From a virus, in the IMG/VR virus record IMGVR_UViG_3300006874_000013, positions 1 through 64,000 of that record: 64,000 nucleotides of DNA; one strand, 5' to 3'. Below, piece after piece: positions 3,022 through 48,900 of the stretch. Position numbers and translations under genes: made by a program. Position 1 is the stretch's first letter. Every line of letters begins with the position of its first letter. The notes below the pieces were generated by a model. The model saw nothing but the letters and a program-made list of their open reading frames with translations. It searched no databases and was not told the DNA's origin.

Positions 3022-3037
3022 TGTTTATGTCCTGTAA

Positions 3038-3057
3038 TGGGGGAGTTGCCTCCCCCA
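3038..3057 (-). other. GC-rich RNA stem-loop with GCAA tetraloop
   Basis: A perfect 8-bp inverted repeat (TGGGGGAG / CTCCCCCA) encloses 4 bases. On the minus-strand transcript the loop reads GCAA, a GNRA tetraloop. It lies between the stop of the dehydrogenase-like gene and the start of the radical-SAM trio. No T-run follows it in the direction of transcription, so it is not a standard intrinsic terminator. It may be a processing, stability or attenuation element. The sequence GATAAACA at 3059-3066, one base off a late-promoter box, lies immediately upstream. Confidence 0.7.
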
Positions 3058-3061
3058 GTGT

Positions 3062-23968: not shown

Positions 23969-26900
23969 TTATAAGTTATGTAAAAACTTCATAATGCTGT
24001 ACTGGTTGTTAAAGTCTACATTTGCTCTATCTGCTAAACTTAATGAAATATTACTTAATACTTCTGCGGCATCCCATTTCTCATCTGCAGATTGATCACC
24101 ATAATCAAATGACTTAAAGTCTATTGTAGCATTTGCAACAAATAAATTAGTGTCCAGTGTATCAGTATAACTTGCTACTATTTCTATGTCGTTGCCATTT
24201 ATTGCTGTAATACTAACAACCTCATAAATGTTTGCATTGCTTTGATGTGTTAATCTCACTGCTTCACCTACAACTAAAGTCATGCTAGATTGTAGTGTAA
24301 CATTTGCAACTGTACTGTTAGCACTATTAACCACTGCATCTACTGTTGTTGTAGTAATATTACCAGATTCTATTGCGTCCCAAGCATCGTATATGTCATC
24401 GCCTGTGCCTAATTGTCCATCAAGCCCTGCTTCTATTTCGTCCCATTTTGCTCTAATATCGTCATATATAATTCCTAGATCAAGCCAAACGTTTGACTCA
24501 GGATTTAGATTATTGAAATGATCTAACACTTGAGCACTATATACTGGTGTATTAGTAACATGTTTTTCTATGCTGGTTCCAAACACACCGCGAGTTAACA
24601 TGCTTAATGTATTTCCAGACTTTCTACCATAGTGTATTCTTTCACTGCCTAACCAAATCATTCCAGGAGTAGTAGACGTTGGTTCTGGTAAAAATGAACC
24701 ATTATTTACTTTAATTTGTCTACTATTAATCTGAACATTTGCTGTTATATATGTTGTAGTCTTAGGCCTTATTCTCACATAGTCTGTGCCGCCAAACAAG
24801 TTGTTATGTACTCTATATGTAACTTCTTTGGCACTAGGTGTAACCTTTGCATGTTGTACATTACCGTTGGCATGGGCTGATGTTGTGACTGTTATGATTA
24901 AACTTTCTAAAGGATCAAGCAGTGCTAGTTCTTCTGGACGTTCTTCACCATATCCAACACGTTGGAATGTGATGCCGTCAAAGCCTTCTTTGATGTTACC
25001 GTCTCTTCTTATTGTAGCATTGCCACTGAATACGCCTTCATATTCTTTTAATTCTACTATTCTATCCCAAGTCAAATCACCTATTCCAACTGTTGTTGTA
25101 CCATAATCATTATCTACAATAACACTGGTATCCTTGTCAGTGTTATCATCGTATGGCAATGAGGAATAACCAAATTCCGTAATTTTTTCAGTGGTATAAT
25201 AAATGTCATCTGGTATAGTTGTAAAGTTATATCCGTCTAGTTCTTCACCTCTAAAGTTGCCGCCAACTTTTTCTTTGATCAATGCAAACGTGCCTTTAAG
25301 TCTATTGTCCTCAACCATATTTGTCATCAAAGTTGCATTACCAATTATGTTACTGTTAGAAGATGCATTTGATGTATTAAAGTATGCATTTACTTCAGAT
25401 GCAAACATGGATTTAACTTCTTGATCGTATTTGAATATTCTATCTGTTGCACGTATAGTAGCATTTGCAGAAACAAGTGTGCTTGTTCTATCACTGATAC
25501 TTGCGTTGCTTAACAAGTTTAGATTAGCAATATTTTCGCCGATACTTTGTGCTAGTGTAACATTTGATTTATCCCAATCTGCTGTTGTCAGTCTCCAGTT
25601 TGTTCTATCAAATACTAATGTAGATTTAACTTTTCTTATAGGATTGGTTGACATATCCTGTAGTCTTTGTTTATAATAGTCTACATATCGTTTGTGTTGT
25701 CTCATTATTTCAGAGTCATCTCTGGAGAAGTCATCTAGTATTCTCACAGAGTTTGTACTTGCATCGACATATGGAGGTTTGTCAAAATCTGTTAAAGCAT
25801 TTTGGCCTATGTAATCAATAGGAGTTTTCTTGCCGTCTTTGTATTCTCTGATTTTTGAGCTAAATGGTTTAACTTCATTCATGTAATCGAGAACTTTTTC
25901 AAAGTTATCAGGCTTGAATCCGCTAAATTTAATAAGGTCTGATTCTTCTTTTTCAATGTAGACATAACTGGTCTTAAATGCCCAACTAAGTTCGCCTTGC
26001 TCTAAGTATGCATACTTCATTAATTCAAAGAAGATCTCATTTATAGAACCATTTGTTTTGAATACATTATTAATCAAAGCAGTTAGTACTTCTCTTAACT
26101 CCAATGCCAAACCAGTGTTTGGTTCATCACTGAATACTCTATCACTAAATTCTATTGTTTCATCTTTAATAGACACTAAATCAAATTTTGACAATGGTGC
26201 ATTCCATAAAAACAATTTAGTTTCTTTATTGTTTTTATATTGAACTTGTATAACTGTAGCATCTGGTAAATCAGTTAAGCGATCCATTTCTTCTATGCTG
26301 GCAACTTTATAAGTAGGTTTGTATGAATCATCATACCTAATTTTTTTATTAGTTAGTTCATCTACTCTAATAGTTTCGTAATAGTTTACTGTGCTAACAT
26401 AATTGAGATTGGTACTCAATCCTATGTTCCAGTTCTTATATTCCGTATTAAGTTTTGTATCTGCTAAAATTTCATTCAGTTTAGATACCAACAACCTTCT
26501 TGCTTGTTTAATATCTGCAAACATTGTTTGTCTAGGTCTAACAGCAATACCATATTTTTCAATTTCACTGAGATTATCAGCAGGTACTTGATTTCCTAAA
26601 ATATCTTGACCGCATATACTGTCAATTAATTTTTCAATCAAAAAGTCAGGTATTTTGTTATCTGAATCATTTTCTCTCAGTAACTTCCAAGCAGTGTGGT
26701 TAATGCCTTCATTGTTTTTAGAATTGTTGATGTTTACTTGTAAATTTACTTCTTGATCTATATTGTTATCTACATTAGATAATACTAATGTGTCATTGGA
26801 AATGGCTGTTAATAATTTTATTCCGTAGCCAATTGGATTTGCAATATATCTTGCAAGTGTACGTGTATCAATTTTTCTGCCAAGATCTCTTTTTGTACGA

Positions 26901-29900
26901 TTGTCTACTTTGGTCCTATTCATTACCCAGTAATAATACATTTGCTTGTACTCACCATTGGTGTCTAATCTACGTTCAGTAACGTATTGATTAGTCCAAC
27001 GTGGTACGCCGTCGCCTATCCAATTTTGTGGTAGTGATTTACTTTCTACCCATTCACATACTGTAATAGAACTTCCTGGGAAAGCTCTACCCCAATTCTT
27101 TGCTCTTTCTTCTAGTGGGCCTTGTTCGTACCAAGTGTATTTTACAGTACTGGTATCCCACCAAACTTTACCTACTTGATCTTTACCAAATGTTGTTCTA
27201 GCAGTGTTATAGTTTACTGGATCGGTGTCAGTAATATAATGTATTTCGTTGTCCATAAAGCCAGGTAACACACCTTTGAATGGATCCCAAAGATTGAGAT
27301 CAAATTCTTTGTTGCCTGTTTCTGGGTCATAAATTATTGCATTTTGTATGTAGTCAACATCTACTAATTCTGTTTGCCATCTTATAGGATTACCGTATTC
27401 AAGATAAGCCCATCCACCTTCGATAAATCCAGGCATAGAGTCTATTGATATGTCAAACTCGGTAGTAATAAAATTGTCTACCCATGCTTTAGGTTCTCCA
27501 ACATACGGATTTCTTTCTTCGTCTAGATTATCGTTTGCAGTTACTACGTTGTTATCGTTAAATCTCTTACTTTCAAATACCTGTATTGGTGTTACTTGAT
27601 TTGCTGAGCCAGTTAAAAATACATTACCACCTTGCAATGTTTGCAAGTCGTATTCATAAACTTCCATCCAACTTTCTGCATCACCGTCACCAAATAAACT
27701 GTTGTTGTCGTTTAGTGGGTATCGTTGGAAATTAATAGGATTACCTGCTAAAGGATTATCTGCACTGGATACAGGTGGTCGTCCAACTGTGTCAACACAA
27801 AGCATAGTCATTACCACAGCATCTTCTGCTACATTTCTATCAGGTCCCACTAATGCACGTATTTGTTCTGCTTCTAGGACACCTAATTGTCCTGAATCAA
27901 TTAATTCTTGTACTTTTCTTTTGTATAAATCTGTTGCGGCATCTTGTGTTAATCCTCCAACATCGATAGTGCCCTCTATACAATACGATGCAACATTATA
28001 ATCGCCTAATGGTATTTCTATAGGCGGTTGTGGATCACCAGTAGGCGATGTAATTCTTATACCAGGATACGATGTTTTAATTATTAACGGAACAATGTCT
28101 CTGTTGTCGTCAACTGTTGCTGTCAAATCTTCTGGATCATATCCAACACCACTGAATGCATCACGCATTCGACGTGCAATATCTGCTGGTGCATTTATTT
28201 CTTGTACAACATCAGGTAAATTTAATTGTTCTTTTATTGTGCCTTTTTCATTACAGTTTGCAACGTTTTGACTTGTGAGGAATACCCTAGCACCAGTACC
28301 ACCAGGAACTTTTTTATCTCTAAGATATTGTCCAAAGTTGCTTTGTTCTACACCATTTGCATCAATGTAAGTGCTAGTTGGATCAAAATCAATTGCATAT
28401 TCTTTTCTTAACAGTAAACCTAAATTATATGCTTCTTCGGCAAATCTTTCCCAATCTTTTGCTGTTGTTGGTGCCACTGGCCAATTACCAGTTAACATAG
28501 GTGCAATATCTACTAACACAAATGTACTAGGATCATACGCACCTGGACTACCGTTGTATTTTATCCATCTTAGTGGTTTATCATCACTTGCATTAGTATC
28601 AAAAGGATAACCTGTGTATATAAATTCTGGATACCTTGTCCAATCTGGATGTTTGTAATTTGTACCGTAATCACTTAGTGAACCAGACTTTTCAAATGGT
28701 ACTTGTGCATATTCTGGGTGTACATCTACACCAGTCTTGCCGCCTGCTTCAACTATTTCTTGATCTATGTCAACACTAAAACCCTGAATAATATTATATG
28801 AATCTTCGATGTCACTGTAAAATATATTATTTCTACTAGGGTCTCCCATACCTAGCACTTTAGCCTTACTACTAAAGAAGTTTTCTAAGAATGGTTCTGT
28901 ATTTTGTAATTTTCCGCTAAAGCCAATAGGTTCATAATCGTATTCTAACGGAATACCATATGTTAAATCACTTGGGAAAATTTCATACAATCCTCTATCA
29001 ATACATTTTAGAGATGTTATACCTCCACTACCGTCGATACCTGTGACAATAAATTTTGCAACTCGCAGTGGACCTTCCATGCCTTTAGCATCCGCTGACA
29101 TTTCAGCATTAGGAGACAATAAATCTGCTACGCCTGATCTTTCTGTACCTAGTGATGCAGGGTCTATGCCTATCAATGCTGATACCTGTGCAGGAACTTT
29201 CTGCATGTTAGGATTAACTGTTTCTATCCACCAGTCGCCTGATTCGGAAAACTCTGCTGGTACATTATAATCTGTTATCCATGTACTTCTTGCTTCTATA
29301 CTGATTTTTGTGTGCCTTGGGAATATAGCATTAACAGCCTCAGCACTTACAAAACTTTGGTGTTGTATTTCAAAGAACCATGGCGACCAACCAAATGCAC
29401 CACTGTTATCATGATTATTTCTAATCACAAGATCAACACCGTAATTGTCGTCATAAACAGTACCAGTTGCACCCGCGGCTGGCGCCGAAGTTGCAACAAA
29501 CCTAGTTCCTATAGTATTGTTATCAGCACCATGATCTGTGTAAGTCACATTTCCAACTGTTCTAATACCGTATGTTCTGCCTGGTATCATCTCTGCGGCA
29601 TTAATATATGGTGGTGAATCCAAAGGTTCTTCTTGCAATGTTTTTGGAACCCAAAATAATGTAAATCTTTTATGACCAAATGTTATGGTATCACCTGCTT
29701 TGTAATCAAGAGACTGATCACCTGGATCACTGTAAGTAAATGTGGAGTCGTATGCTTGTTTACCCCAATGATTGTCATCTGTTGCTATCACAACTGTGTT
29801 GGTGTTTTCATCAATACTGTTTACATATCCGTGCCATCTAGTTGTGTTAGCAAGATCAATGTTTCCACGATCTTCGTCGGCATCGTATGTGACGTTAACA

Positions 29901-32900
29901 ACTAAGTCACCAACTTCAATACCATCTACGTTATTAAGTACCAAAGAATGGTGTGTATCATCAGCGGTCGATGTGTTATTAAATACGTCCGCATAAGCCA
30001 CGTTTGCATCTAATATTTTTGTTAAGTCATTGCTAACAGGATAGTGTCCTATTTCAACATATGATTGCTGTCTCAGTGCTTTACCTGGTGCAAAGGCATT
30101 TGTAAAGGTACTGTTATTAGTTACAATTCTAGCTCTTTCCGCTTGTCTTACATGTGGTTCAACGTCTGGATCTACCCAAAAAACTCCTTGCAATGAAGCA
30201 AAGCCTCCTAAGCCTACATCAGCATTACCATAGCCTCTGTCTTCACGCTCGGAAGTTGTTGAACCATCTGGATTTCTTGTGGCATGCATGTCATACGTAT
30301 ATGATTGACCAATAGTAGCAGGTCTTCTTGCACGTACATATCTATCAAAAATTTCTGTGGTTCCTGTGGCGTTTCCGTTAACATCAAATTCTTGGACTTC
30401 TCTTGTGACTTTGAAAAGTTCATTTTCTACTACAGTGTATTGAGGTGTCCAAGCGTCATTGATTGTTTTATCTGCAGTACGTCTAGGTGAATAATCTACT
30501 ACAGTGACTTTTGGTGGATTATTATAATCATATCCAAAACCGCCATTCAATAATTCTATTGCCGCAATGCCGCCATTTTCATCTAATGATGTTACAACTG
30601 CCGCCGCACCTATACCAGAACCGTCTCCGGCTTCTCCGCTCGAATCTATAACAATTTGTATATAATTAGGGTCGCTATATCCTGCGCCGGCACTATCTAT
30701 ACAAATCATTGTGATAGGACCACGTGGGTCTTGTACTGGTGTTCCACCTACTAATCTTAATCTATCGCCTATCTGATATCCACTACCACCTGTGCTGTAC
30801 ACAGATACATTAGATTCTGTTTCTGTAACTTGTGGTAACCACACATTAGGTGCTTCTCCTTTTGAAAATCCCATTTCTCGAAGTTCTGCTTCAGATGGTA
30901 TGTATTCAACAAATCTTTCTAGATTTGGATCAGGGTCAAAGTCGTGATACTTTGCTTTGAGCTTTTCTGCAAGTGTTGCATTTTCAGGGTCATCTAATTC
31001 ATCAGGCGTGTGCCTTAGAGATAAAAATGGGCTTCTACCTTGATCTACTAATTGTGTTTTGAGATACGATTGCGGATATGGTTTTTGACTTGATTGTTGT
31101 CCTCTTTGTACAGGATATGTTCCACCAATAACATCATTGGCACTAAAAATTGTGGCATTAGCAGTTTTTGCAATACTTTTATGCGTGTCTGCTCTTTGCT
31201 CAAACCCTCTGTTAACATGAAAGTCACCAACTTGTTTGTATTTTCCTGCTCCACAGCCATTAGCAATATTAAATGGCATACCATCGCAACTTGACAAAAC
31301 AATTTCTTTATCGCCAGTACTGCCTGCTGATACTTCGGCTCTAATACCAGATCTCAAACAGTTAACTTGTGTTGCTATGTCTATTACACCGTTACCTCTG
31401 AAAATAACTTTACGCCCGTTTAGCAGTAACTCAGAACCTCTGTTTAATCCTGTCATATCTCCTTCAGGTATTACAACATTTGGGACTGGTGCTCTAAATT
31501 CAACTCTTGCTGGAGGGCCTGCAGGTTCCAAGAATCCGCCTGGTCCAAATTCCAGAGGAGTAATATCCATCATTTGTATATTATTATATTTTATATCATC
31601 AAATGGTTCTGCATATTCTAATGGTTCTGGAATGAACACATCATCCTCTTGTGTAGCAGAATATCCTGTACTTGCATTTCTTGGTTGAGATGTGTTTGGT
31701 ATTGTAGGAGTGTCATCAAACGGTACAGTAATGCTGTCATCGGTTGTTGGTCTACCTGATGTTACATTATTAACAGGTTGCCCATTTACATAATATTGTG
31801 AACCTACTTTTACAGGTTGATAAGATATTGTCCTGCTAGTTTTATTTAGATTTAATAAGTTTTGTAAATTTTTAGCCCATGGTTCTTGGTTAGCATCATA
31901 TGATTGAAGAGGTGTTGATTCTCTGGCTACTGTTGTTAACTTTTTAGCCAGAGGTATTACAAAACCTCCACTAACACGTTGCGTAGTTTGATTTACATAT
32001 CTATCAGTTGAGAGTTCTTGACTAAATCCTACTTGTTGTAAATCTGATAATTTAATTCTCTTTGGTGCTTTTGCAGTTGAAGGTATAAATTTATTACCAC
32101 TATAAGGCTTTGCATAATAAGGACTACTATTACCTGCTTTTACACTTCCTAATTCTTCAGCATTAAATGCCGCAAAATATTTTTCTTTCAACGAAGCATT
32201 ATCGTCTACAACACCTTCTTTATAAGTGTAATTGCTTAATGGAGTATCAAATCCCTTTTGTAGACTTACACATTGATTAATTATTTGTTGCTGATCATTG
32301 CCTGCCCAATATGCATTTAATGTCAAACAATGTGCTAATGCTTGTGAACACAAGATAGGTTTTCTGCCTTCGGCATCTGATGCGCCTACATACATAGAAC
32401 CCATAGGCGTACCTAAACATGATAACCCTATTCTTTCATCAGTTAAAGGAACGTCTATTTTATATGGAACCATTGCAGTATCAGGTATAGATACCTGAAG
32501 AGCTATATATTGCCTAGTTGCAGGTGCGTCTTCTGCCGTTGAACTTCCAGTGTTGTCGTAATTAGTGCCTACTGTGGCCCACGAGCCATCAAAGTTACTA
32601 CTGTCAGTAAAGTCAGCATAGATCCTTTCATAGTTTTCTGGTGGTCCTTTTAACGTTTCAAAATTGTTTTCAGTGACACCTCTATATGTTTTCCAGTTTG
32701 TAAATCTAGTTACAAAATTGTATTCAATGCCTTTTGAATTATAAATTAAGCCATAATGTCCTACACTGGGTTGACCAGAATTTTTTAGCATTGGTGTTCT
32801 GGAAATTGCTTTGCTCCAATCGTTGCCATTGAGTTTGTAGTGCCAAAATGCAAATGCTTTATGCTGTGCAGACTCGTGCCAAATCTTAATGTATTCAGCT

Positions 32901-33883
32901 CTCATGTATCTCCACAAATCACCATTTTGTTTCCAGTATTCGCTTGTCCATGGTATTACTGGAGGTAAACCTACACCTGCTTGAATCTTACCGCCTATAG
33001 AACCAAACGCATTCTGAGCACCAGGAATATATGCTGGGTTACCAATTTTTAAGTTTTCATATATCCATGCAGGGCTTAAATTTTCAGGATTTGCAAGTTT
33101 CATATCCTCAAACGTTTTTGTTTTGTCAAACATTGAACCAGTTACTAACCTTGCCAATTGTAATTCATAAAAAGCATAGTCTCTTTGAGATATGCCGTCT
33201 GGCATACCTGGCATCTGAGTATAAGGATCAGCATTTAATATTGTGTCTGCCCAACGATCTAAAAGTTGTACCTTTGTATCTCGATTCATTACAGTTTCAA
33301 AAAAGTTTGCTGACTTAAATTCTGTCTGTAAATACTCTGAATTATTTGCGTTATGATATCCTCTAAAAATTGCTTGCCTAAAGTTTAATGAACCCATATC
33401 TTTAAGGCGAGAATATTTGATAAAGTTTTTATACCATGCTTCTCTGCTATTACTTTGGCTTACATAAGTTCTATCATCATTGAATATTGGGATAGGAGTA
33501 AATGATCTTGTTGTTGGAAAATCAAATCCTACACTTCTAAAATTGTTAAAGAAATTTTGTGCTGGAACTTCACTCCATGGATTATGATCGGCTTCTTTGT
33601 ACTCTAGTGTCCACTCAAATAAACTTTTTCTGTAGCCAGTTGGGTCTGCAGATTCTTGTGCTACTGCAAAGTTAGAAGAATTCCACACTGTCCATAATCC
33701 TTCGAGTTCTTTGAAGTTGCTGGAAAAACTTGCTAATGATCTAGAAGTGTCTAAATCTTTACCGTTCAACTTTTGCCAATCATGAAAAAGTAGCTCGAAG
33801 CCTGGCCAAGAATATGGGCTGAGATTTCCTACTTGTGAATCAATCTCTATAGAATCAGTTGTGGTATAATTTTCAACAGCCAA
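23969..33883 (-). CDS. Giant virion structural protein, 3304 residues, TTG start
   Basis: This 3304-residue protein fills the position after the 5038-residue gene, where T4-like phages keep baseplate-wedge and tail-fibre connector genes. It is rich in Asn, Asp, Thr and Tyr, with several GxGYxxP beta segments (GAGYSDPNY, GGFGYDYNNPP) that resemble repeats in the 5038-residue protein. No enzymatic domain is evident. Translation seems to start at a TTG, since AGAGG lies 7 bases upstream and no ATG or GTG is near. A late box lies 18 bases upstream of the TTG. I infer a peripheral baseplate role from its place only. Confidence 0.8.
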   Translation of the reverse strand: MAVENYTTTDSIEIDSQVGNLSPYSWPGFELLFHDWQKLNGKDLDTSRSLASFSSNFKELEGLWTVWNSSNFAVAQESADPTGYRKSLFEWTLEYKEADHNPWSEVPAQNFFNNFRSVGFDFPTTRSFTPIPIFNDDRTYVSQSNSREAWYKNFIKYSRLKDMGSLNFRQAIFRGYHNANNSEYLQTEFKSANFFETVMNRDTKVQLLDRWADTILNADPYTQMPGMPDGISQRDYAFYELQLARLVTGSMFDKTKTFEDMKLANPENLSPAWIYENLKIGNPAYIPGAQNAFGSIGGKIQAGVGLPPVIPWTSEYWKQNGDLWRYMRAEYIKIWHESAQHKAFAFWHYKLNGNDWSKAISRTPMLKNSGQPSVGHYGLIYNSKGIEYNFVTRFTNWKTYRGVTENNFETLKGPPENYERIYADFTDSSNFDGSWATVGTNYDNTGSSTAEDAPATRQYIALQVSIPDTAMVPYKIDVPLTDERIGLSCLGTPMGSMYVGASDAEGRKPILCSQALAHCLTLNAYWAGNDQQQIINQCVSLQKGFDTPLSNYTYKEGVVDDNASLKEKYFAAFNAEELGSVKAGNSSPYYAKPYSGNKFIPSTAKAPKRIKLSDLQQVGFSQELSTDRYVNQTTQRVSGGFVIPLAKKLTTVARESTPLQSYDANQEPWAKNLQNLLNLNKTSRTISYQPVKVGSQYYVNGQPVNNVTSGRPTTDDSITVPFDDTPTIPNTSQPRNASTGYSATQEDDVFIPEPLEYAEPFDDIKYNNIQMMDITPLEFGPGGFLEPAGPPARVEFRAPVPNVVIPEGDMTGLNRGSELLLNGRKVIFRGNGVIDIATQVNCLRSGIRAEVSAGSTGDKEIVLSSCDGMPFNIANGCGAGKYKQVGDFHVNRGFEQRADTHKSIAKTANATIFSANDVIGGTYPVQRGQQSSQKPYPQSYLKTQLVDQGRSPFLSLRHTPDELDDPENATLAEKLKAKYHDFDPDPNLERFVEYIPSEAELREMGFSKGEAPNVWLPQVTETESNVSVYSTGGSGYQIGDRLRLVGGTPVQDPRGPITMICIDSAGAGYSDPNYIQIVIDSSGEAGDGSGIGAAAVVTSLDENGGIAAIELLNGGFGYDYNNPPKVTVVDYSPRRTADKTINDAWTPQYTVVENELFKVTREVQEFDVNGNATGTTEIFDRYVRARRPATIGQSYTYDMHATRNPDGSTTSEREDRGYGNADVGLGGFASLQGVFWVDPDVEPHVRQAERARIVTNNSTFTNAFAPGKALRQQSYVEIGHYPVSNDLTKILDANVAYADVFNNTSTADDTHHSLVLNNVDGIEVGDLVVNVTYDADEDRGNIDLANTTRWHGYVNSIDENTNTVVIATDDNHWGKQAYDSTFTYSDPGDQSLDYKAGDTITFGHKRFTLFWVPKTLQEEPLDSPPYINAAEMIPGRTYGIRTVGNVTYTDHGADNNTIGTRFVATSAPAAGATGTVYDDNYGVDLVIRNNHDNSGAFGWSPWFFEIQHQSFVSAEAVNAIFPRHTKISIEARSTWITDYNVPAEFSESGDWWIETVNPNMQKVPAQVSALIGIDPASLGTERSGVADLLSPNAEMSADAKGMEGPLRVAKFIVTGIDGSGGITSLKCIDRGLYEIFPSDLTYGIPLEYDYEPIGFSGKLQNTEPFLENFFSSKAKVLGMGDPSRNNIFYSDIEDSYNIIQGFSVDIDQEIVEAGGKTGVDVHPEYAQVPFEKSGSLSDYGTNYKHPDWTRYPEFIYTGYPFDTNASDDKPLRWIKYNGSPGAYDPSTFVLVDIAPMLTGNWPVAPTTAKDWERFAEEAYNLGLLLRKEYAIDFDPTSTYIDANGVEQSNFGQYLRDKKVPGGTGARVFLTSQNVANCNEKGTIKEQLNLPDVVQEINAPADIARRMRDAFSGVGYDPEDLTATVDDNRDIVPLIIKTSYPGIRITSPTGDPQPPIEIPLGDYNVASYCIEGTIDVGGLTQDAATDLYKRKVQELIDSGQLGVLEAEQIRALVGPDRNVAEDAVVMTMLCVDTVGRPPVSSADNPLAGNPINFQRYPLNDNNSLFGDGDAESWMEVYEYDLQTLQGGNVFLTGSANQVTPIQVFESKRFNDNNVVTANDNLDEERNPYVGEPKAWVDNFITTEFDISIDSMPGFIEGGWAYLEYGNPIRWQTELVDVDYIQNAIIYDPETGNKEFDLNLWDPFKGVLPGFMDNEIHYITDTDPVNYNTARTTFGKDQVGKVWWDTSTVKYTWYEQGPLEERAKNWGRAFPGSSITVCEWVESKSLPQNWIGDGVPRWTNQYVTERRLDTNGEYKQMYYYWVMNRTKVDNRTKRDLGRKIDTRTLARYIANPIGYGIKLLTAISNDTLVLSNVDNNIDQEVNLQVNINNSKNNEGINHTAWKLLRENDSDNKIPDFLIEKLIDSICGQDILGNQVPADNLSEIEKYGIAVRPRQTMFADIKQARRLLVSKLNEILADTKLNTEYKNWNIGLSTNLNYVSTVNYYETIRVDELTNKKIRYDDSYKPTYKVASIEEMDRLTDLPDATVIQVQYKNNKETKLFLWNAPLSKFDLVSIKDETIEFSDRVFSDEPNTGLALELREVLTALINNVFKTNGSINEIFFELMKYAYLEQGELSWAFKTSYVYIEKEESDLIKFSGFKPDNFEKVLDYMNEVKPFSSKIREYKDGKKTPIDYIGQNALTDFDKPPYVDASTNSVRILDDFSRDDSEIMRQHKRYVDYYKQRLQDMSTNPIRKVKSTLVFDRTNWRLTTADWDKSNVTLAQSIGENIANLNLLSNASISDRTSTLVSANATIRATDRIFKYDQEVKSMFASEVNAYFNTSNASSNSNIIGNATLMTNMVEDNRLKGTFALIKEKVGGNFRGEELDGYNFTTIPDDIYYTTEKITEFGYSSLPYDDNTDKDTSVIVDNDYGTTTVGIGDLTWDRIVELKEYEGVFSGNATIRRDGNIKEGFDGITFQRVGYGEERPEELALLDPLESLIITVTTSAHANGNVQHAKVTPSAKEVTYRVHNNLFGGTDYVRIRPKTTTYITANVQINSRQIKVNNGSFLPEPTSTTPGMIWLGSERIHYGRKSGNTLSMLTRGVFGTSIEKHVTNTPVYSAQVLDHFNNLNPESNVWLDLGIIYDDIRAKWDEIEAGLDGQLGTGDDIYDAWDAIESGNITTTTVDAVVNSANSTVANVTLQSSMTLVVGEAVRLTHQSNANIYEVVSITAINGNDIEIVASYTDTLDTNLFVANATIDFKSFDYGDQSADEKWDAAEVLSNISLSLADRANVDFNNQYSIMKFLHNL

Positions 33884-33901
33884 TTTATTTCCTCTTTCCT
33901 A

Positions 33902-33928: not shown

Positions 33929-36900
33929 TTATCTCTTCTGCTTTTCATTACCATCTTCTAATGTCGCAGAGTTGTGTACACACATATCTTCAACAAAGTA
34001 GTTATGGTATTCACCAACATCACACAAGTGATAAACAGTATCAGTTTTGCCAGTGTTAACAATATTTGTTACAACTGCATTATCAACAAGTCCATGTAGT
34101 TCTCTGCCAATTTCTAATTTCTCTGCTTGTTCAGTTGAATCTAGTCCTGTTACATACTGCATGTCTTCTTGTACAAAGTTAGGATCTATATTAGCCCACT
34201 TACCGTCAGCAGTTCTAAATGGATGGTCTGCTGTGGTTTCAATAACAGTGCCATCGTCTAAAGTTAGTTCGTATATGTTACATGTTCTTGGAACCATTAA
34301 TTCTTCGACAGTAGCATTTACAATTTCATTTGTATTGTTATCATATGATTTAACTGCATCACCTTTTACAACATCTTTAATTTCTTTTTGTGTACCATCA
34401 GCCATAGTAACTTTCATGTGTCCCGTGAAACAGCCGCCGCCACCACCTGAATTCTGTCCTGGCGGAGTACCATCTGATGGTGGTGCATCATCCTCGCAAC
34501 TGAATCCTCCAAATATTGGATAACCTGAGATATTTCCTCCTTGAGCTCTGTTACATGTCCACATTAATCCGTAATGCCCTGGTCCACCTCTGTTACTAAA
34601 CATTAATCTAATAAAATAGAATTTGTTTGCTTCTAGATACACTGCTTTTCTGTGTTGCGACCACTGGTTCCACCAATTTGCCTTTGTTTCATCTGTGGTA
34701 GTCCATCCAGTTTTCATCAACCAGTTATGTGCAGGACCATTAGCAACATTTTCTTTGCTACTTTCTAATCTGTCGGTCCAGCATCCGTTGTGTGCAACAT
34801 TTGCTGTGCTGATATAATTATACCCATTATCAGCATTAAATCCATCATCAGTGAACCATTCTTTGAAAGTCCCTGGTGCGGCATCACCGCCGCTTGGTGA
34901 TGGTCCAGAGCCATCATCTGGCACACCAATTCGGGCATAATTTTTGAAACCGCCGCTAATGTAATTTGGGTATGCGTTCCATATGTCTAAATCTGGTTCA
35001 GGCGGGCCACTTGACAAGTAGACAATCAATTGGTCATCACCCCAACCACTAAAGTAATATACGCCTGTGTGTGGAGCAAACATATATCCTTTTAGTTCAT
35101 ATGAATGCTGACCTTGTCCTGAATTATATTTGTGGAAGGATTTTACAGTTCTATTTACTATTGGTGCAGACCCTGCTGTACGTGTTCGCCATGGCTTCCA
35201 AATGTTAGAGTTTGAGAAACTTTTGAAATACGAAGGAGAAATATACAAGTCATGGTACGGCCAATATACGTTGTCAACTTCACGTTTAGAACCCCACCAA
35301 TCTTCTCCGTGTTTTGCATCTTGTGCAGAGTTGTTATCATCTCTGAGGGCTTTCCAGCCTTTTAATACAGCACCATTTCTATATGCTCTACTTGGTCTAT
35401 TAGTATCATCACAAGAAGGTCCTGGTGGCACATAGTCATCTGGCTTTTCGCCTACAAATCTTATCACCGCTTGGTTTCTTATTATTGAAGGTCCGTCTGC
35501 TGTATCGTCAGCCGCTTCAAAATAATTATATGCATGACTGTAGTCATTAGCATACGAGCCGTTAACATCTCTAAGTGTGTTACCTGCTGTATCTGAAAGT
35601 GAAGGTACCATCCATAATGTGATGTATTTGCCTTTATTACAATCTACATTTAATGCTCTAATATAGCCAATGCCATTGAAACCAAACTCATTGTTTTCGT
35701 TAAAGCCTTTGCCTGTCATCTCAGTGGCAAGATCACTATCCCAATCTGACCATTTAACAGAGATATCATCGTCGTTGAGTTCTGATATTAATCTTGTGAA
35801 TGTTAAATCATTATAGAGTCTTGTTTCGTTGTTTGAAATATTCTCTACATTATCATACGTGTGTAGGCCTTTGTCATTGGTATCAAATATAGCATCAACT
35901 TGTGTATATCTATTAGCACCAGATGTTAAATTTTGATCTACACCATATCTAGATATTTGATCACCATTTCTGGTTGGAATATCATTTGCATTGTTCATTG
36001 TGGTTTTAAGCAGTCGTGTGTCCGGGTCTGCTAACCAAGCACCTAGATCAAGATGATTGGTCATAACTTTGCTGGATCCAAACAACGGCTGTTTACTTTG
36101 CCATAAAACATAACCAGTTGCATTACCCCAAGGTTTTGCTTTTATGGTGTCGTTTTCAACATGAGAATTTAGGAATACATCTATACTGCCTGATGTTGCT
36201 ATTTCAACTGTTTTGCTAAAGAAGAATTGCATGTCACCACCGAATCCATATTGATTACTATCAAAAAATGCTTGACAATTTGTTAATGTATTAAGCATTA
36301 GTTGTGTAGTAAATGATCTCCCGGCATCGGTTGTATTAACTGAGCCAGTTGGATTACTTTTTCCTTCGAGGCCGTCATTCATTTCCTCAAAGAAATACTG
36401 TGTTTCTTTTTCTGTACACACACCTGGTGCAGTTGTGCCAGGAGGCGTAGGATCATCTGGCGTTTCTATTGCTAAACAAGGACCAGGTGCCTGGGTAATT
36501 TTTGCCAGTGTGTTTACAGGTGCGCCACCCTCTACTGTGGGTACAGATTGGAAGCCTAATTGTTGTTCTAATTCGCCACTGCTGAGTAATCTTGTATTAC
36601 TCAAACTGTAATTTTGTGTACTTCCTGCAACTGGTATAGGTGTTGCACTTCTAGTCAATGCTGGAAGATCTACAACTAAGGTATCGTCATCACCAGTACT
36701 AGCACTGCCAGTTTCTACAGGATCAAATTGATCTATATAACTATCAACATCATCTGGTGTGAGTATTGCTCCTGATTGGTTAATAGCATAATCAACTGTT
36801 ACATTATTCCAGCCTTTTCCAGCCCAACCTGTGTCAGGTATCAATCTTCTTGTGATTGCATTTGGTGGTAATTCTGTAAGCCTGATATATTTTACACGTA

Positions 36901-39900
36901 CAACTGTGCCGTCGTAATCACTGTAAATAGGTGCTGGATTGCCGTCTGCATCAAGTTGATCATAGTTATAACCTGTTATCTGATCAACGTATGTGAATGG
37001 CTCTGTCCAAAAACATGCAACAAATATATGTTCTGGGCGTAGTAATGTGTTGTCCTCGTCGTTGTCATTTTCATTTGCAACGCCGTCACTGACCACTTCA
37101 TCAATTTCTAAATAGTCCCACCACTCTTCATCAAAGAAGAAGTTGTAATCAATTTCTCTATCAACGCCATTGATATCTTCGAATATGCCATCCCAAAATG
37201 CTTGATTAGAGTCACCTTCTCTTGATCTGCTGTCTGGTTGCAATCCAGTAAGATCTTCTTCTGTATATCTAACACCATTAATTTCGTATAAACGTCTGTC
37301 AACGTTAAATACAGGAGGATTTACAGTAAATCTTCTACTGTATTTGAATCTAGAAATAGGCTTGTCATATGTAAGGTCACTTACATCGGGATAGTCTAAT
37401 GCATCATGGTCGTCACCTGCTTGATAATATCCACTACCGTAACCTAGTGTTTCATTATCTACTGATCCAGGGCCGCCTGATGTAGGTGCCCATTGACCTG
37501 GTGCTAGACCTGGTGTCCATAGAAGGAATTGGCCAAAGCCTGTTTGTGGAACATATATTTCTTCTCCTTCGGCACCACCTGGTAATATACCTCCTGGCTC
37601 TCCAATTGGATAATCTATATACGTAGATAGTTTGGCCTGTGTTCCACTTGGTAATGCTGTAAAGTTTGCTATTCGATCTGAATTATTTCCACCTGCTAAC
37701 GCAAAAGGTTCTGGAATCAATTGAGGGCCTACATAAGCGGCCGGTTCAACTGCTTTTAAGTTTACAATGTTTTTGGTTTTTCTCAATCTAATAGGATCTT
37801 TTGGTTCTGTAATCTTATTATCAGAATCAATTGAAGGTAATATCTCATTTCTCCAATAGTAATCTGTTGTGTCATATTGACCAAAATCGGCATACCTATT
37901 GAGAGTAGCATTAAAATCATGATCTATGTTAGGTGGATTACTCTCATCCAACTTAATATAATAAACATGATTATCTGAATTTTGTACTGCTTGGTAAATC
38001 AAAAATACATTTTCATTTTTAATTGCACGTAACCTGTATGTAGGAATACTAATAGAATCTGAACCTGCAGTAAACGTCTTTTTATCAAGCATGTTGTATG
38101 TTTGTTGTTTTCTACCAGGCCTCCAAGATCTACTTGAGTTTGCACTACCAGGAATTTGTTTTAGAACTAAATCCTCATTTATATAATCTAGGTTATTAGT
38201 TTGCATGTAGGTACCAACATGAAACTCCGGCATTGGAGGAATTCTTGGTTCTTGTTTGTCATTTACAATTACACCATCTTTCACAATAGTTTCTTCGGGC
38301 ACATACATTTGTATTTCGTTATCCCAAATATAATTGATATCATCTTTAACATATCTCAATCCGTACACAGGACCTGATTGTATTGGGCCTTTATAAAAAT
38401 TAGGATCTATTCTGGATTCATCCTCTGAACCAATTACCATTGAACCAGTAACAGAATTTTCTTGAATGCTATTTAATGCTTCAGTGCTTAAAACATAAGG
38501 CCCGTAATCATGAATTAACGGTGCAGGTGTATCTCCTACAACAGGTATCCACGGACTTTTCAACATTGGAATTTTAAGTTGCATAGATGGTAATCCTGTT
38601 TTTGGATTAACTGTTGTCATGCTAGTTGGATCTGTGAAACTTTGTTTTAATTTAATAGTTCTGTTTAGGTCGTTTTCCAATGCCTGTGGATTCAAATAAC
38701 TAGTTAAATGTTGTTGACTGCCTTTAAGTGTAACAACACCCTGGTCCACAGTACTTAATTGTGGATATAAAATATTTCTACCCATGTCTCTTTGTACATC
38801 AACATCAATACTAATTTGTGTATCACTTGGTAATGCATCTGGGTGTATTACACAAACACTTCCGTCCTCTACAATGCTTACAAATCTTGGATTAACAATT
38901 TCAGCATTGCTTGAATACTTAACAACTGTTTCTGTTAAATCTGTGCTTCTGGTTAATCCTATACTGTTAGTTGAGTTTGCAAAATCAGCATTTATGTTAC
39001 CAGATTCATATGGCACACTGCCATTGATTGTTCCTATTTTGTGATCATAGTAAATCTGTGTTGTAGTTGACTTAGCCCAACGATTATTAATGTATAATTC
39101 TTTTGGTGTAACTTTATTAATGCTGTAAATTTGATTGTATGCTTTTGGACTAGCAAAGTGTACAGCAATGCGTTTTCCATATTCAGCATATAGAGGCGAT
39201 ATACCATGATCACTTACTGTTTTAATTTTGATTCCTTCAGTGGTAATGGTACCTGACTGGTATCCAAATGTAAACGGAGAAGGAATTGTAATATTGCCAT
39301 TTTCAGAACTTTTAACTCTAAACATACCTTCAAAGTTATTTGCAAATACTCTCACAATATCATTATCGCTTAGTGGAAGATCTGGATTGCGTGTAACTAA
39401 TTTTGTATTGTTTAAGTGTCTAACACTTAAGGCATTACCAGCAACACTATTAGGTCTTGTAATGGTAAAACTTCTTTGTGTGACATTGCTAACAATGTGA
39501 TATCTACCTGTATCACTAGAATAATCTTTATATGATTTTATAACAAATGCTAAATTGTTAATGTTACTTACAACATTAGCATCTTCGAGCAAAGGCTCAT
39601 TTATATGGAGCAATGCATTTGTAGGATTTTGTGAATAGCCAATCAGTTTATGAGTTTTTGTAAACAGTGATTGAATTTTAGCAATAGTTGCTGTGTTTGC
39701 ATCTGATGGTAAACCAAATTGTGTGTCTACATTGATGCTACCAGTAACCGTTATACTGGTATTTGCAAAACTACCACTAGAGTCATCAAGAATATTTTGA
39801 TCAATTTCAGCATTTCCAAAATTCATATTAGGTGTTGCTGTTGCTGAACCACTGATACTGATTGTTGGTGTGCTAGTAAAGCCTACACCGCCATTCACAA

Positions 39901-42900
39901 CATTTAGTGCTGTAACTTTGGCATTTATTACTGCTTCGCCTGAGAAACCTGTGCCGTCACCGTGTATGGTTACTGCTGGTGCTTGAGTATATCCAGAGCC
40001 AATGTTTGTAACAACTGCTCTCACATTACCTTGTAGAATTGGTACTGCGGTTGCATTTTGTCCGCCTGTGCCTGTGATTGTCACAGTAGGTAAATTGTTA
40101 CTTTCATAACCGCTACCACGTTCTAAAATATTGATATTTAATATTTGACCAGTTACTGGGTCAACGTCCATGTCTCTGACTTCTGCTGTTGCTGTTGTTC
40201 CTGAACTAGGTGGAGTAATTGTTACTGTTACTGGATTAGTAGCATTGTAATCGCCGTTACTGTCAGGTCCAGTGTACAAATAATCTTGTCCTGGGTCGGT
40301 AATTGTAAAGCCCACAATTTCAGCATCAAAAATATCTGTACGCACTGTAGCGCCTGTTCCACCACCACCGCCAAGTGACACATTAGCACGTTGGAAATTG
40401 TTGTCAGTGATAATGTTTACGGTGCTTACATTACCTTCTATGTTTGCTGTAATGGTTGCACCTAAGTCTGGTGTTACTGTAACAGTAGGTGGTTCTGAGT
40501 ATCCTGAGCCTGCACTTGTAATTGTTAAGTTAGCAATACTAGTTGGGTTAAGAGATACATTACCTGATGTTACTGTAGCAACTACAGCGTCACGTTGTAC
40601 TTTAGTACCAATGTTATCTATGATTTGTACAGCATCACCGTTACTGATAGTGCCTATAGACCCGGTTAATTGTACGGTGTTTCCATCACTGCTACTTACA
40701 ATACTAGCACGTAATCCAGACAACACTTGGCTTACAACTGGTTCTGTAGATATAATGTCATAACTGTTAAGAGGACCAATAGATTGAATTCTTGCTTCAA
40801 TCTGCCTTGGTGCCTCAAAGCCTCTAACTTTGCTGGTTGCTTCTCTAATTATTCTTTCGTTGTTCCATACAACAATGTTATCATTTACATTTGCGTTTTG
40901 TAATGACAACACAAAATCTAAATATTTTCCAGTATTGATTTCGCCAATTTGGTTGCTGTCAATGTATGATATCAAACTGTAATTTGTAAACAGTGTTACA
41001 TTGCCACTTTCACTTCTTTCTAGATAGTTTACTTTTTTACTTGCTGTTTCGCTTAATAAATTATCACCTGCAGGAATTAATTCGTATACGTTCCAATCTT
41101 CGTTTTCTGATTTAGCAACATGTATGTAATCATTTTGTTTTGGCTTGAATATAAAATCATCTCTGTATAAATCACTAATACTTTCTACATCAAATGCCAA
41201 GAAGTTAACATTCGCTGAGTTTACATAACCAGCATTACTAATTCTAGGATAGTTACTGTCTGTCATGCCAAATATATCAACGTTGGCTGTAGTTGGCCAA
41301 AGTTTGCTGATTTTATCACCTTCTGGTTTCTTCAAGAATCTTGTAGCATCGTCAATATCAAATACTAGTATGTCTTTTGACGATGACGGCACAACATCAT
41401 ATGTTCGCTTGATTCCTACTCTAGGGGCAATACCTTCTTTAGCAGTTACTTTGATTCTCACTTTAGAATTAGGTAGATCACCAACAAAATTTTCAGTGAA
41501 AGTTAGTGTAGGTCTTTCTATAATTTGTATTACAGCATTTTCATCTAACGCATAATAAGTGTCACGTTGTTGTTCGTTTGCATCATAATCTCCTGGTGGA
41601 TTAACTTTTGCTGTTAATACAGAATCAGGTAACAGACTAATATCATTAAAAGTAATACTGTTTGTAGCCAATGTAAACACATTACCATTTGAAACTAATG
41701 TACCATCTGAAGTGTATGTGCTAGGCGAATTATAAATTCTCACATTGTTTACAAAAACTTCAACGTATTTGTATTGGCTGTTGTCGCCTTTAACTAAATT
41801 AGATGGATCTATGTTTTGAGCACTATTAAATGCTAAAGATACACTGTTATTAACTAATTCAAATGCATTGTTGTCTGCATCAGCAATATTACTTGTATTA
41901 AGTGATGGATATTCTGCAAGTGTTGTAATTGAAAAATTAGAACCTTCGTCAAATGTCCAGTATATATCTAAAGGATTATTCGGATCAACTCTAGGTACAT
42001 TTGCATCATCAACTTCCACAACTATATCATTTGCTGTAGTTGTATAAGTAGGATCTTCGTTTGCTAATGCGCCAACAAGACTAAATTTTTGTTGAGGTTG
42101 ATATCTAGCATTAGTTATTCCAATGTTTGCGCCGTCTACCACAGTAAAATCACTACCTGATAAAGTAATAATATCTTTTGCAACTAAATCAATTACAGAT
42201 GCGTTTGCATCAAGGTCTGTATAGTTTGTTATGCTACTTGCTGTGACATTAACGTTCAGACTAGTATTACTGTTAATTGCACTTGCAATATTTGCACCAG
42301 TAACGTTTGAAGTACCGTCTGAATGTGTAACAGTAAGCCTAACAGTGCTTTCAGAAACATGATCTGTGATCTCAAATTCTGTAGAAGTTGTGTCAGTAAT
42401 GTATGTATTACCAATTGCTAATGCTTTGTCAAGCACAGTTTCTACTTCATTGATTAATACATTTGAAGCAACTACTCTTGCGGCTAATGCAGTTGGGTCA
42501 TCATAACCTGAACCAGACTCCGTTACAATAATACTGTCTAATTTGTTATTGCTGTTTAACTTAGCAACTGCTGTTGCACGTTTTCCTTTAGGATTACTAG
42601 GCATTGATATTTCAATCTCTGGTAATCTTTCGTAATTGTATCTTGCTTCGAACACATCTATGCGTTCAATACAATTAGTTGTACTTTGTGGATAATCTAA
42701 TTTTATTAATTGACTATTCTGTTTGAAGTCTGTTTTGTATAATTTAAGTTCAATGTTTTGCTTGTTTTTTGTATTACCAAAATCGCCTACACGTAATGCC
42801 CATTCGTCGTATACAGTAATGTTGCCTTGGACAATACTGTTACTGTTAGCCAAACGTGTTAAACTTTCCTTAGTACCTTTATTCTGAATCATGCCTTGAT

Positions 42901-45900
42901 AGAATTCAAACTGTTGTTCATCAAGCACATCAAGTTCTGTTAGATAACTTTTTTCTTGGTAGCCAAACAATGCTCTACTTTGTTCGTATAGTTGTTTTTC
43001 AACAGGCACAAATCCTAATTCATGATAGCGACCTAAACTTTCCGCCATATTATCTAAGTTTGGTCTAAGTTCGTCACCATCAATTATAAAGCCTTCTGAA
43101 AAGAATTTACCTGTCCAGTTCTTTGTTCTGTTTGCTTTGATCTTGATTCTCTTATGTCTTTGATCATATAAATTATCAAAGATTACATCAGCAAACACAG
43201 TTTGATTATCAAACACTAGTGCATGTTCAATTTCTTTTGTGAACAACATGCAACCATAAATTTGTTGTCCTAGCGGAGGAATAATTTCTATTTGAGACCC
43301 TTCTCTATTAATTTGGCATTTACCAGGATCAACAACTGCGCCTGTTTGATCTATGATAGAAAATTGATCTCTGTCAGTCCTATTAATCTTAGCAATAAAA
43401 CCTCGAGGAGCAGTAAACAACAAACGTTTTGCAAGTGGTGATAATTCAATGGTATTACCTATTTCCCATTTACCTGTTGTCCAAAACAAAAATTGTTTGC
43501 CAGCATACATCCAGTCATTGACATCATTGATAGCACCGTCAAATTCTCCAAAGTCAAAACCTTCCTGATTATTATAAGCACCTAGGCCTATTAATAAGTC
43601 AAAAACTTCTTGTATAGTTTCAAATTCTGTATCATAGTATACTCTAACTGGTACTGATTTTCTAACTTGATACAATGCCGCTTCTGCACCATTTTTCTGT
43701 GGTAATTTACTTAATGTATTCCAATACTGTGGATCAAAATTTGTACCAGATGTAACATTTAGTTTTGCTCTAAAGTAACTTCTATTATACTCAACTATTG
43801 TGCCTTTAGGATAACTTTGTTCTGGTGCCCATTTAACATGTGGTGCTGGTTCGCCACCAACAGAAATTAACGATTTAGGACTCTTAGGATCAACTGGTAA
43901 TACATTAAAGTATCCTCTGTTTTTATCGTACCCTCTTACAATATACCCACCAGCACTTTTTTCAATAATAATGCCGCTATAAAAATTCCTTGATTTATAA
44001 TTACTACTATGTAGGTTGACATTTATATTCTCTTGTGGTATAATTAAACTTGTAGCATTACCGTCATTACTATATTGGTCTGTTCTAGCAACCATGGTGT
44101 CTTTATCAATGAAGCCACTCATTCTCTGTGCTAAATTGGTATTCAGGGTTCTCATTTTAGTTGCAAAGTCATCTACAATGCTGAGATTTTGAAACTTTAA
44201 CCATGTGTATATAAATTGTGTATAACCAATTGCTGTTATGAAATTTTTATTTTGATCTAGTTCGCCATGTATATGGAATTCCGTTGGATCATAAAACTTC
44301 CAAAACTCTCCAGTATTTTTATTGAGAATATATTCTTTGTTACAACTAGGCCTTGTTAAAGAAATTGGATTACTAAAGAAAGTAGCAAACAATCCTGGTT
44401 TGGATAATAGCAGTGCCTCCGACATTGCAAAAGGAAATTCTTCTGTGTTCCTCCACGCATACTCTGCTGGACTGCAATCACCAAATGACCATTTACCAGA
44501 AATACCGGTTGTGCTAACCACTGAAGTATTTAATGTGCTTCTTATATAATAATCAGCATCTTGATTTATATACCCATTATTTTTGTTATTGTCTGTTTCA
44601 TCTATAACTACTTCTAATATAGCTCTGTAGCCATCACCTTGTATAGTTGCTAATGCTTCAGTGTAACCTGAGCCGGAATTTGTGATTGTAATTGCTTGTA
44701 TAGCACCATCAACAATAGTTGCAGTAGCAGTAGCACCACTTCCGTTGCCAGTAATTGCAACTGTTGCGTTAGTGTACTGCCCACCTTTGTTTTTGATTTT
44801 TATTTCTTTTATTAAACCTGTATCAGGAGCATTTGAATAAAAACAATTTTGATAAACATTATTACCTGAAGTTCCTTGCCCTGAACTTCCGCCTACATGG
44901 AAAGGGAAAACAGGTTTGTTGTTTTCATCTACTGTGGCAACATAAAATCTAATAGGTGTATTCGGTGATTCTGGTGTACGTGCATATCTAACATTATATT
45001 CATCAACATACTCGTCACCACTGCCGGCAGTTGGTTCCCAGTCTTCTATAAATTGACCAGTGTAAGCACCACCTGGACCAGATTGTCTTGTACCTGATCT
45101 CACTGCCCATTTAGATTTAATTCTCACAATACTGTTTGAGTCTATACCTTGAGCACCACCGTATCCATATGGACCATAAATAGGCAGACCATCTAATGCC
45201 CAACCTACTATTGGGGAGTGTTCAGTTGTACTCCACTCAGTTAATCCTGCTACACGTGGACTAAAGACATGATAGTGTAAAATGCCGTCCTCAACACTTG
45301 CATGACCTGAATCCGGATCATGATTTTTTGTAACAGTTGAGTAATGCCATTCACCTTCGCCTTTCCAACTTTCTTCTGATTTAATATTGTATACCGGTAT
45401 ACCATTTACTGCCACAGCAACAGGACCCTTGCCTTGCTTTTGTGAATTGCCTGTAGGAGGTATATTTGCTAAATCTCTTTTTGGAATAGTGTAACTTACA
45501 GCATCAAATTCAATTGACTCGCCATCTAGTGTGGCGTGTCCAGAATGTTCGTAGTGTAACCCGTCTAGTGTATGATTAGGTATAGTATGACTTTGTACAT
45601 ACAAATTACCGCTATCTAGTGAAACTGATACACCGTCGTTTCTAGCAAATGATGTTACTTGAATATCTGTAAGGGCATTTACAAATTCGTTATTCCATTG
45701 CTTTGTTAGTGTTGTGGTATCTGTAGAAATAATATCAGCAGGTGCAATCAAGTCGCCGTTGCTGTCAACTGGAATTACTTCATGCAGTCCAATTCTTCTA
45801 AAGGGGTTGTTCTTCTTGAACGCATCATTGTGAATATTTGCTCTAGGGCCTTTTCTTATTATGCCTTGCTCTAAATCATTCCATAATTTTTCATTGGTAG

Positions 45901-48900
45901 GAGAATAATCTATAATAGGACTTACTTTGTTTGTATCGCCCGAAGCATACAAAGCATATTCGCTGTCCCACCATATAGGCTTTTCTGTAAAGCCTAACAT
46001 TTCCCATGGATGAGTATTTGGTTTAATGGTATCGTAGTAATACAAATAGAAGCCTTTCCAATGCCCTGGTATTAAACCTGTATTTGCATAGTTCCATGTA
46101 AATTTATTATTTTCATCATAGAATTCATTGACTGTACCATCGAGATTATTTCTCTGCAACCAACTAGAGTATGAACTTATCATCAAGTCATTGAACTCTT
46201 TATACTCTAATGATGTTTTTCTAAATTCGCCATTTTGTGAACTAAACACACTATGTTCTGGCATGCTGTTATTAGTTCTAAACTCTGCTTTAGCACTGTT
46301 AAATATTCTCTTTTCAAATTCTAATAACAAGTCATCACGTAAGTCTCCCTTGATAGGTGTCTCACTTCCGTCATGGCCTATAATAACCTTTAAGGGTTGA
46401 GAGAAACTCTTGTCTATTGTAATTTCAGGTTTGAACAGTGGATATAATCCCATTGTGCTTGGAGTAGGAGGACATTGAGCACTATCTCTTTCTGCATCGT
46501 ATAACTTAAATAAAACAGTATCACCAGAACTCAAATTAACACTGTCTTGTATTGTAATGGTTAAAGGTTCAAACGAACTTATTACATAATCGTGATCAAC
46601 AGTTAATAATTTTTGATTTAGAAATACCAATAAACTGTGTTCAAGTTTGTCTAGGTCTGCATCATATACACTTGTAAATGTCTTATCTGCAGGCGTACTT
46701 GGAATGCCAACTAAAAATTCTTCTTCTTTGTAATTGTCACCATATGGCAAAATATATGTTCTATTAAATACATCTCTGCCTACTTTGTAACTTTGTGTAT
46801 TTCGAATAACTTGTTCTAAAATATCACTGACAGCAATACCATCTGTATCTTTGGTATCATAGTATTTGTTAATTTCATTTTTGATTCTGTTTTTGAATTT
46901 CACATACTCAGCTCTATTAAATTTCAAAGCATCTATTAAGTTGTGTGGTTGATCATCAAGTAAAAATGAACCTAGTATAACATTTTGATCAGTGTTTACA
47001 ATTTTGTTTGCAAATGTATCACTTTTAACAATACTATCAGAATTATTTGAACCAAATTTTAATCCAGAGAAACCTTCTTGGTTGCTCATGTAATCACTAA
47101 AGTGTTCCATATATTGTGGCTGACTTATACCAACAATATCTTGTTTTAGTACATTGTTTTTCCAACCAATTGGTAATTCGTATTTAGAAATATTTTGATC
47201 GTCAATTAATCCTACTTCTGAATTTACACTGATTTCTAAAATATCATTTGCTGAATATGGAATAGAATCTAGTCGTATAAAACCTTTGTTGGTGCTAAAG
47301 TATTGAAAGCCTGTGATTTCATCACCGTTAAGTGTAACTGTAATTTCGTAGCCGCTACTAAATTTAGGATTGCTTTTTGGTTCAGCACCAATATAAAAAT
47401 CTTTTATTTGTCTATCAACAACTGCTTGTGGTAAAGAATATGTAGAAACAATTTTTTGTACATTAGGTTCTGAAACATGTTTCCAATGTGCATGATATTC
47501 TACAACTTTTTTGTTTAACTTGTAAAATTTGTAACCACTGATGTTTTTGCTTGAGTTGCCACCAAACGGAATAAAATTATAGTTACCTGTTTTTTGAAAA
47601 TTTTCAAACAGTATTTCTGAACTAGATTTGAATTGCTTGTATACTAACGGAAACCCAAGCTCTATATCAGAAACCAAACTTACACTTGTGTTACTTTCCC
47701 CGGTAGGAATGCTAGTTGCATAACCAAAGATTTTGTTTCCTGTAAAGTTGTTCTGAGGATATAAATCACTATCACCTAAATATTGTCCTTTGTTATCATA
47801 GAGATTAAATAAAGGCTCTTGATTAATTTTTGATTTGTGCTGTGCTTGTACCCAACCTACACTAGTCCAGACATATTCGGAACCAAGATATTTTGAACCT
47901 GAATCTACGCAAACAACATCACCAACTACTGGCGTCATTGGTATAAAATTATCATCGCCGTCAACTGCGCCTGCTGGATTATTTAATGCTGGAACTCTAG
48001 ATAGTGTAACAAATGCTTGTGCGTTTGAGCCTTGATAGATGTATTGTGAAACTTCCTTATCTTCATTAGGAAAGATCATATATGCATTTGATACATCTAC
48101 TGAATCAACTAATTGTCCTGTTTTAAGTCCCTTTACGTCAGCAATTGAGAAATCAGCCACAGAAACATTTACAGTGTAAAGTAATTTCTCTCCATGCTTG
48201 TATAATTCTAATTCTTTATCAAACTCTATAATAGGTCTATTTGCACGTTTGGTTTTTTCTGGTATTGAATCGCCAGCATCTCTGAAATTTTCTATGTGGT
48301 ACCAATGATTAACTCTACTCCAAGCGTTTTTATTAGTAGCACCACGCTCCTGAATTAAGTAATCTTTTTCCCAATCTACTGATGTATCAAGTCTATAAGA
48401 TACAGGATTGTTTGATGTTATTTCAGTTAATTTTATTGCATCGCCAACACCAGATACAATAAATGTTTTGCTAGTTTCTGTTGCTGGAATGACATAGTTG
48501 CCTGAGAACTCTACCTTCATTCCGTTTCTCATAGACTTACCATTAGGCAATGTATAAGTTTTTTTACCAAGTATGTCTAAGTCTATATCTATATAATCAG
48601 ATGCTGTACCAGTTATTGTGATTACCGATGGTCCTTCTGGTACCCAATAATATTCTTGGTAATTAATAAATTTGTCAACATTTATAGGAGGTAAAAATGT
48701 ACTATATCTATCTGAAAATAATTTATTATGGTTTTTTGTCTGTACACCATAACTTTTTAATAAGTCTATAAACTCATCATAAAAAATTAAATTTTCTGGC
48801 TTGTTAGTATCTGATGTTTTTGTACTAACTGTAGGCGATAAACTATAGAAACGTTTTGACGCAGTAGGGTGTATAATATATGCACCTTCTACATCATGGT

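Follow-up and report, generated by a model that had tools for sequence, protein, structure and literature searches.

The 64,000-nucleotide stretch of viral DNA that was analyzed here (IMG/VR record IMGVR_UViG_3300006874_000013, positions 1 to 64,000; hereafter the window) encodes, at the gp7 position of its baseplate genes, a giant protein (gp7A) that ends in an intact Hint domain. We infer from the sequence that this domain, which lies at a chain break, is probably a self-cleaving module of the BIL-like kind and that mature gp7A ends in poly-Gly. The original prediction had placed a complete Hint domain with its catalytic residues at the C terminus of a baseplate-class protein of 5,038 residues. 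Profile matches and the predicted fold bear this out, and residues 4872–5025 occupy exactly the interval in which the domain had been placed (Table 1). Self-processing, which had been put forward as the likely function, is also supported, and release by cleavage appears to fit the sequence data best.

Profile searches and structure prediction had been proposed as checks on the domain, and both were carried out. Four profiles matched above their curated cut-offs: PF14890 (Intein_splicing, 50.5 bits; cut-off 35.8), TIGR01445 (36.5; 24.5), PF01079 (37.0; 29.7), and PF07591 (pretoxin-Hint, 29.3; 27.7). An AlphaFold2 model calculated from an alignment with 33 relatives has the horseshoe-shaped, all-β Hint fold (pLDDT 88, pTM 0.85). 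A search of this model against the PDB returned 62 chains at E ≤ 0.001; the 50 of the 62 that were listed are all inteins, BIL domains, or hedgehog autoprocessing domains, and the top match is the Tetrahymena BIL2 domain (TM 0.76/0.87). The block A cysteine (Cys4872) and the block B TxxH motif (Thr4938, His4941) that mark the Hint superfamily are both present. Prediction of the last 480 residues of gp7A, comprising the GLEYA adhesin-like and Hint domains, drew on three sequences only and reached a pLDDT of 28. Two candidate classes were rejected: a homing intein, because the window Hint has no endonuclease insert, and a pretoxin Hint (PT-HINT), because only 13 residues and no toxin domain follow the Hint, although PF07591 scored above its cut-off.

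Table 1. Baseplate genes of the window and features of the gp7A C terminus (window positions)
Feature	Position	Strand	Details or basis
gp25-like baseplate wedge subunit	53526..53894	(-)	122 aa; context
gp6-like baseplate wedge subunit	49045..53526	(-)	1493 aa; context
gp7A, gp7-position baseplate wedge protein, N-terminal part	33929..49045	(-)	5038 aa; homology, synteny
YHYH domain (PF14240) within gp7A	44921..45448	(-)	context
GLEYA adhesin-like domain, N-terminal of the linker	34565..34711	(-)	PF10528, 30.1 bits (cut-off 26.2)
Gly5 linker	34433..34447	(-)	immediately upstream of Cys1
Hint domain, residues 4872-5025	33971..34432	(-)	profiles, predicted fold, family profile
Cys1 (Cys4872)	34430-34432	(-)	block A
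TxxH (T4938, H4941)	34223-34234	(-)	block B
Block F His (H5014)	34004-34006	(-)	
HN (H5024, N5025)	33971-33976	(-)	Asn5025 at 33971-33973, followed by S5026 at +1
Tail of 13 residues, SATLEDGNEKQKR	33932..33970	(-)	3' of HN; +1 is Ser; non-conserved
Shine-Dalgarno-like aggaaagagg	33891..33900	(-)	7 nt upstream of the gp7B TTG; identical in orthologous contig
gp7B	23969..33883	(-)	3304 aa, TTG start; C-terminal part of single-chain gp7-like proteins matched by residues 2075-2701 and 3018-3116

Apart from a fragment identical to the window, the only further orthologues of the gp7A C terminus that were found are two IMG/VR contigs of almost the same sequence, in which gp7A also carries the Hint (open frame of 5,035 codons). 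Comparison of the Hint between the window and one relative (L007) gave a dN of 0.19 and a dS of 0.69 (NG86); the resulting dN/dS of about 0.28 indicates purifying selection. In an alignment assembled without selection on catalytic residues, Cys1 is kept in 81 of the 82 rows reaching that position, the block B His in 74 of 76, and the terminal HN in 18 of 18. The domain is therefore maintained: the gene is intact in relatives, dN is lower than dS, and the catalytic residues are preserved. The near invariance of Cys1, the block B His, and HN in an alignment that is otherwise 28% conserved (its rows having been partly selected on motifs) also argues against a Hint that performs no catalysis and serves as a folded end-cap or assembly domain, its catalytic residues being kept for stability. 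We consider such a role unlikely; in its favor are the short, non-conserved tail, the retention of the domain in genes that are already split and seem to have no need of cleavage, and the tail-region Hints of two cultured phages that lack the HN end.

Within the Hint superfamily, the module is closest to the A-type BIL domains. The family profile scored the solved BIL domains highest (99 bits for 2lwy and 95 bits for BIL2, 6y75/6tmm) and canonical inteins at most 60, in agreement with the fold search; the window Hint sequence used alone gave a mixed ranking of BIL and intein structures. With the BIL domains of Clostridium thermocellum (2lwy) and Tetrahymena BUBL1 (BIL2; 6y75, 6tmm) it shares the Hint fold, Cys1, the block B His, a terminal HN without a conserved nucleophile at +1, and occurrence in varied host proteins. 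It departs from them in that the phage modules lie at the end, or at a chain break, of baseplate proteins, and in that the wider phage family mostly has Lys or Arg at +1. Class 1 mini-inteins (Ssp DnaB, 1mi8; gp41-1, 6qaz) resemble the window Hint in having all splicing blocks and no endonuclease, whereas the window Hint lacks both a conserved Cys, Ser, or Thr at +1 and a conserved C-extein, and does not reside in an enzyme of DNA metabolism.

The +1 position and the tail bear directly on whether the 13 residues could be joined onto the poly-Gly end by canonical class 1 splicing, as the original prediction had entertained. The window itself has every class 1 motif, and the His5024-Asn5025 pair is kept in its relatives. 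Serine at +1, however, is peculiar to the window within its clade: the 67% identical orthologue has Met and a 51% identical relative (L009) has Ile. Among 32 distinct family modules, 20 have Lys at this position; Cys or Ser occurs only in the window and in two modules that resemble ordinary inteins and have long flanks on the C-terminal side, the other 29 having no Cys, Ser, or Thr. Nor does the Hint interrupt a conserved protein whose C-extein is functional. The tail is only 2/12 identical, versus 71% for the Hint, and the tails of the window and its nearest relatives (13, 15, and 6 residues) share no alignable sequence. BIL domains without a +1 nucleophile reportedly give mainly cleaved products (PMC7664689). 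Since the +1 residue is not conserved, the tails are unalike, and such BIL domains mainly cleave, tail splicing was rejected as the selected function, and we regard canonical splicing as highly improbable. Some splicing chemistry in the window copy is not impossible, since the +1 residue there is Ser. The poly-Gly stretch, which the original prediction had likened to a purpose-built linker, recurs in L007 and L009, but it cannot be called a dedicated signal, because many relatives have different linkers rich in Gly or Pro.

The host protein explains what the Hint terminates. The gene order gp25-gp6-gp7A has its equivalent in PA5oct, Atu_ph07, and Phosso, and the N-terminal 1,000 residues of gp7A match the proteins of these T4-like jumbo phages; its location downstream of gp25-like and gp6-like genes thus gives gp7A the position of T4 gp7. 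The four cultured relatives compared (PA5oct, SCTP-2, Atu_ph07, and Phosso) all encode the homologous protein as a single, Hint-less chain (3,807–4,555 residues); that of PA5oct is noted in its record as detected by mass spectrometry. The single chains are collinear with gp7A followed by gp7B: residues 4–2211 of gp7A match 5–2087 of the PA5oct protein, and residues 2075–3116 of gp7B match 2222–3810. Because the single-chain relatives correspond to gp7A plus gp7B, the Hint closes the first half of a baseplate protein whose gene is split. The assignment to a T4-like baseplate protein stands on synteny and homology, with the amendment that gp7A covers no more than the N-terminal part of a protein that cultured relatives encode as one chain. 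Extra sequence, including the GLEYA adhesin-like domain, flanks the break in both gp7A and gp7B. In contig L002, the gene break, the strong gp7B ribosome-binding site, and its start site are all conserved. Readthrough from gp7A into gp7B was rejected: the two genes share a frame in the window but are in different frames in L002, and they are separated by stop codons in frame. A Pfam search with the whole of gp7B (3,304 residues) gave no match.

A comparable arrangement is found in VrlC, which has been described as taking the place of gp7 in pelagimyophages and cyanomyophages (PMC7029224). No sequence similarity was detected between VrlC and the window gp7-like protein, so VrlC was rejected as a homologue and the comparison is one of analogy. 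Among the Hint-bearing VrlC loci from IMG/VR, 21 distinct ones have a single Hint or a pair of Hints in frame, mid-ORF, directly before the motif [DN]P[LI]AQ[ST]F. In 16 distinct split loci the Hint or Hints end ORF1 and ORF2 begins with the same motif (a seventeenth case, L188, is a likely frameshift and is left out of the count). When VrlC was searched for without use of the Hint, 67 of 67 Hint-less loci were unsplit. Fisher's test for the association of Hint with split gives 5e-9, a value that, we stress, is a guide only, since the loci share ancestry and the two sets were sampled in different ways. A tree built from the C-terminal part of VrlC requires five changes of the label "split", one of them caused by L188, which points to several changes between the split and unsplit forms. 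In the 21 unsplit proteins, the final HN is always followed by Lys (16) or Arg (5). Hint-bearing VrlC of uncultured T4-like phages (loci such as L119, L123, L148, and L177) resembles gp7A in that a BIL-like Hint lies at a chain break of a gp7-equivalent baseplate protein, and differs from it in the lack of detectable homology, in Lys or Arg at +1, and in the fixed site before DPLAQSF. Genes with one to three Hint modules at this site include L053:287-7236, L038:2-6759, L119:3401-9144, L123:5723-9253, L148:3356-9016, and L177:1260-8000. The domain is thus not restricted to the window: Hints recur at the gp7-equivalent protein of uncultured T4-like phages. In the open-access literature, we found no report of Hints in gp7-position or VrlC proteins or of a link to gene splits; databases already contain Hint domains in uncultured phage proteins.

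In the self-cleavage that we favor, Cys4872 would attack the carbonyl of Gly4871 in an N-S acyl shift aided by the block B TxxH, giving a Gly thioester. Hydrolysis of the thioester would yield mature gp7A with a poly-Gly end, and the Hint would be discarded; cyclization of Asn5025, aided by His5024, would release the 13-residue tail. The separately made gp7B would then assemble with gp7A without being joined to it, and the presumed purpose of cleavage would be separate chains with a defined C terminus. In unsplit VrlC, the same reaction would cut one chain into two. The outcome would be equivalent to that in split VrlC and in the window, because the break in the split forms is already encoded in the genes.

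In a gene that is already split, self-cleavage would remove only the Hint and a short tail, and the preservation of HN nevertheless hints that the C-terminal step has a further role. Joining of the activated end to a different chain would account for this preservation. BIL2 reportedly forms isopeptide bonds, joining a ubiquitin-like domain to lysine (PMC8616854), and because it is the closest fold match, thioester-mediated attachment to another molecule, also raised in the original prediction, is still considered. The Hint thioester would transfer the poly-Gly end of gp7A to an amine (a lysine or the N terminus of gp7B) and so covalently join baseplate parts. The poly-Gly before Cys1 resembles a ubiquitin-like end, the partner chain gp7B is the next gene, and both the Hint and HN were retained despite the split. 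Against this, only one of the two BIL2 zinc ligands is kept (His5006 at the H125 position; H48 is replaced by Pro, as read from the alignment), gp7B does not begin with Cys, no acceptor was found, and cleavage is the main reaction of BIL domains that have no +1 nucleophile. We therefore think a ligation of this kind improbable. The fuller proposal, that joining the activated end to gp7B or to a neighboring lysine re-links or cross-links the two-gene baseplate protein through a ubiquitin-like conjugation that needs no ATP and is part of the virion itself, and does likewise in split VrlC, seems a little less probable again. Hedgehog (1at0) offers a further comparison. Its autoprocessing domain is also a C-terminal Hint, and the window domain would similarly form a Gly-Cys thioester and leave the N-terminal part with a modified end; the window domain differs in keeping HN and in having no sterol-recognition region, and the fold match is weaker (TM 0.63/0.74). 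Hedgehog-like sterol ligation was rejected on the lack of that region and on the 13 residues that follow the Hint.

Related modules occur in other phage proteins. The 319-residue product of L009:3512-4486 is otherwise unrelated to gp7A, yet its C-terminal Hint is 51% identical to that of the window and is also preceded by poly-Gly. Such movement between unrelated proteins, together with the single fixed site in VrlC, which resembles an intein homing site, would suit a formerly selfish intein, now without its endonuclease, that is decaying at a selectively neutral C-terminal location. Decay is contradicted by purifying selection and by the intact motifs of relatives, and the repeated association with gene splits is unexpected for a neutral relic; we see very little chance that this explanation is correct. 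Among cultured phages, tblastn for the window-type Hint returned only inteins in terminases, helicases, and similar proteins, and none was found with a Hint at a gp7-type chain break. Achromobacter phage JWF (gp028, L191:4077-5528) and Providencia phage PSTNGR1 (L192:4554-5507) have Hints without the HN end near the C terminus of tail-region proteins.

If self-cleavage of gp7A is real, it would represent a route of virion-protein maturation for which we found no prior report in tailed phages, in which self-excising BIL-like modules set the chain ends of a central baseplate wedge protein without a protease. Gene fission would then have placed a gene-level break at the same site as the protein-level break, and would have done so in two baseplate proteins between which no homology was detected.

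Several phage proteins (L070:4022-5287, L014, L021, L025, and L081) contain tandem Hint modules, and several of these are linked as HN-K-(few residues)-C with no intervening domain. The gene for the L009 Hint protein adjoins nicotinamide phosphoribosyltransferase and cytidyltransferase genes. In the window clade, Cys4922, Cys5022, and His5006 (window positions 33980-34282) are invariant; these residues are rare in other Hint modules, and they might constitute a metal or disulfide switch.
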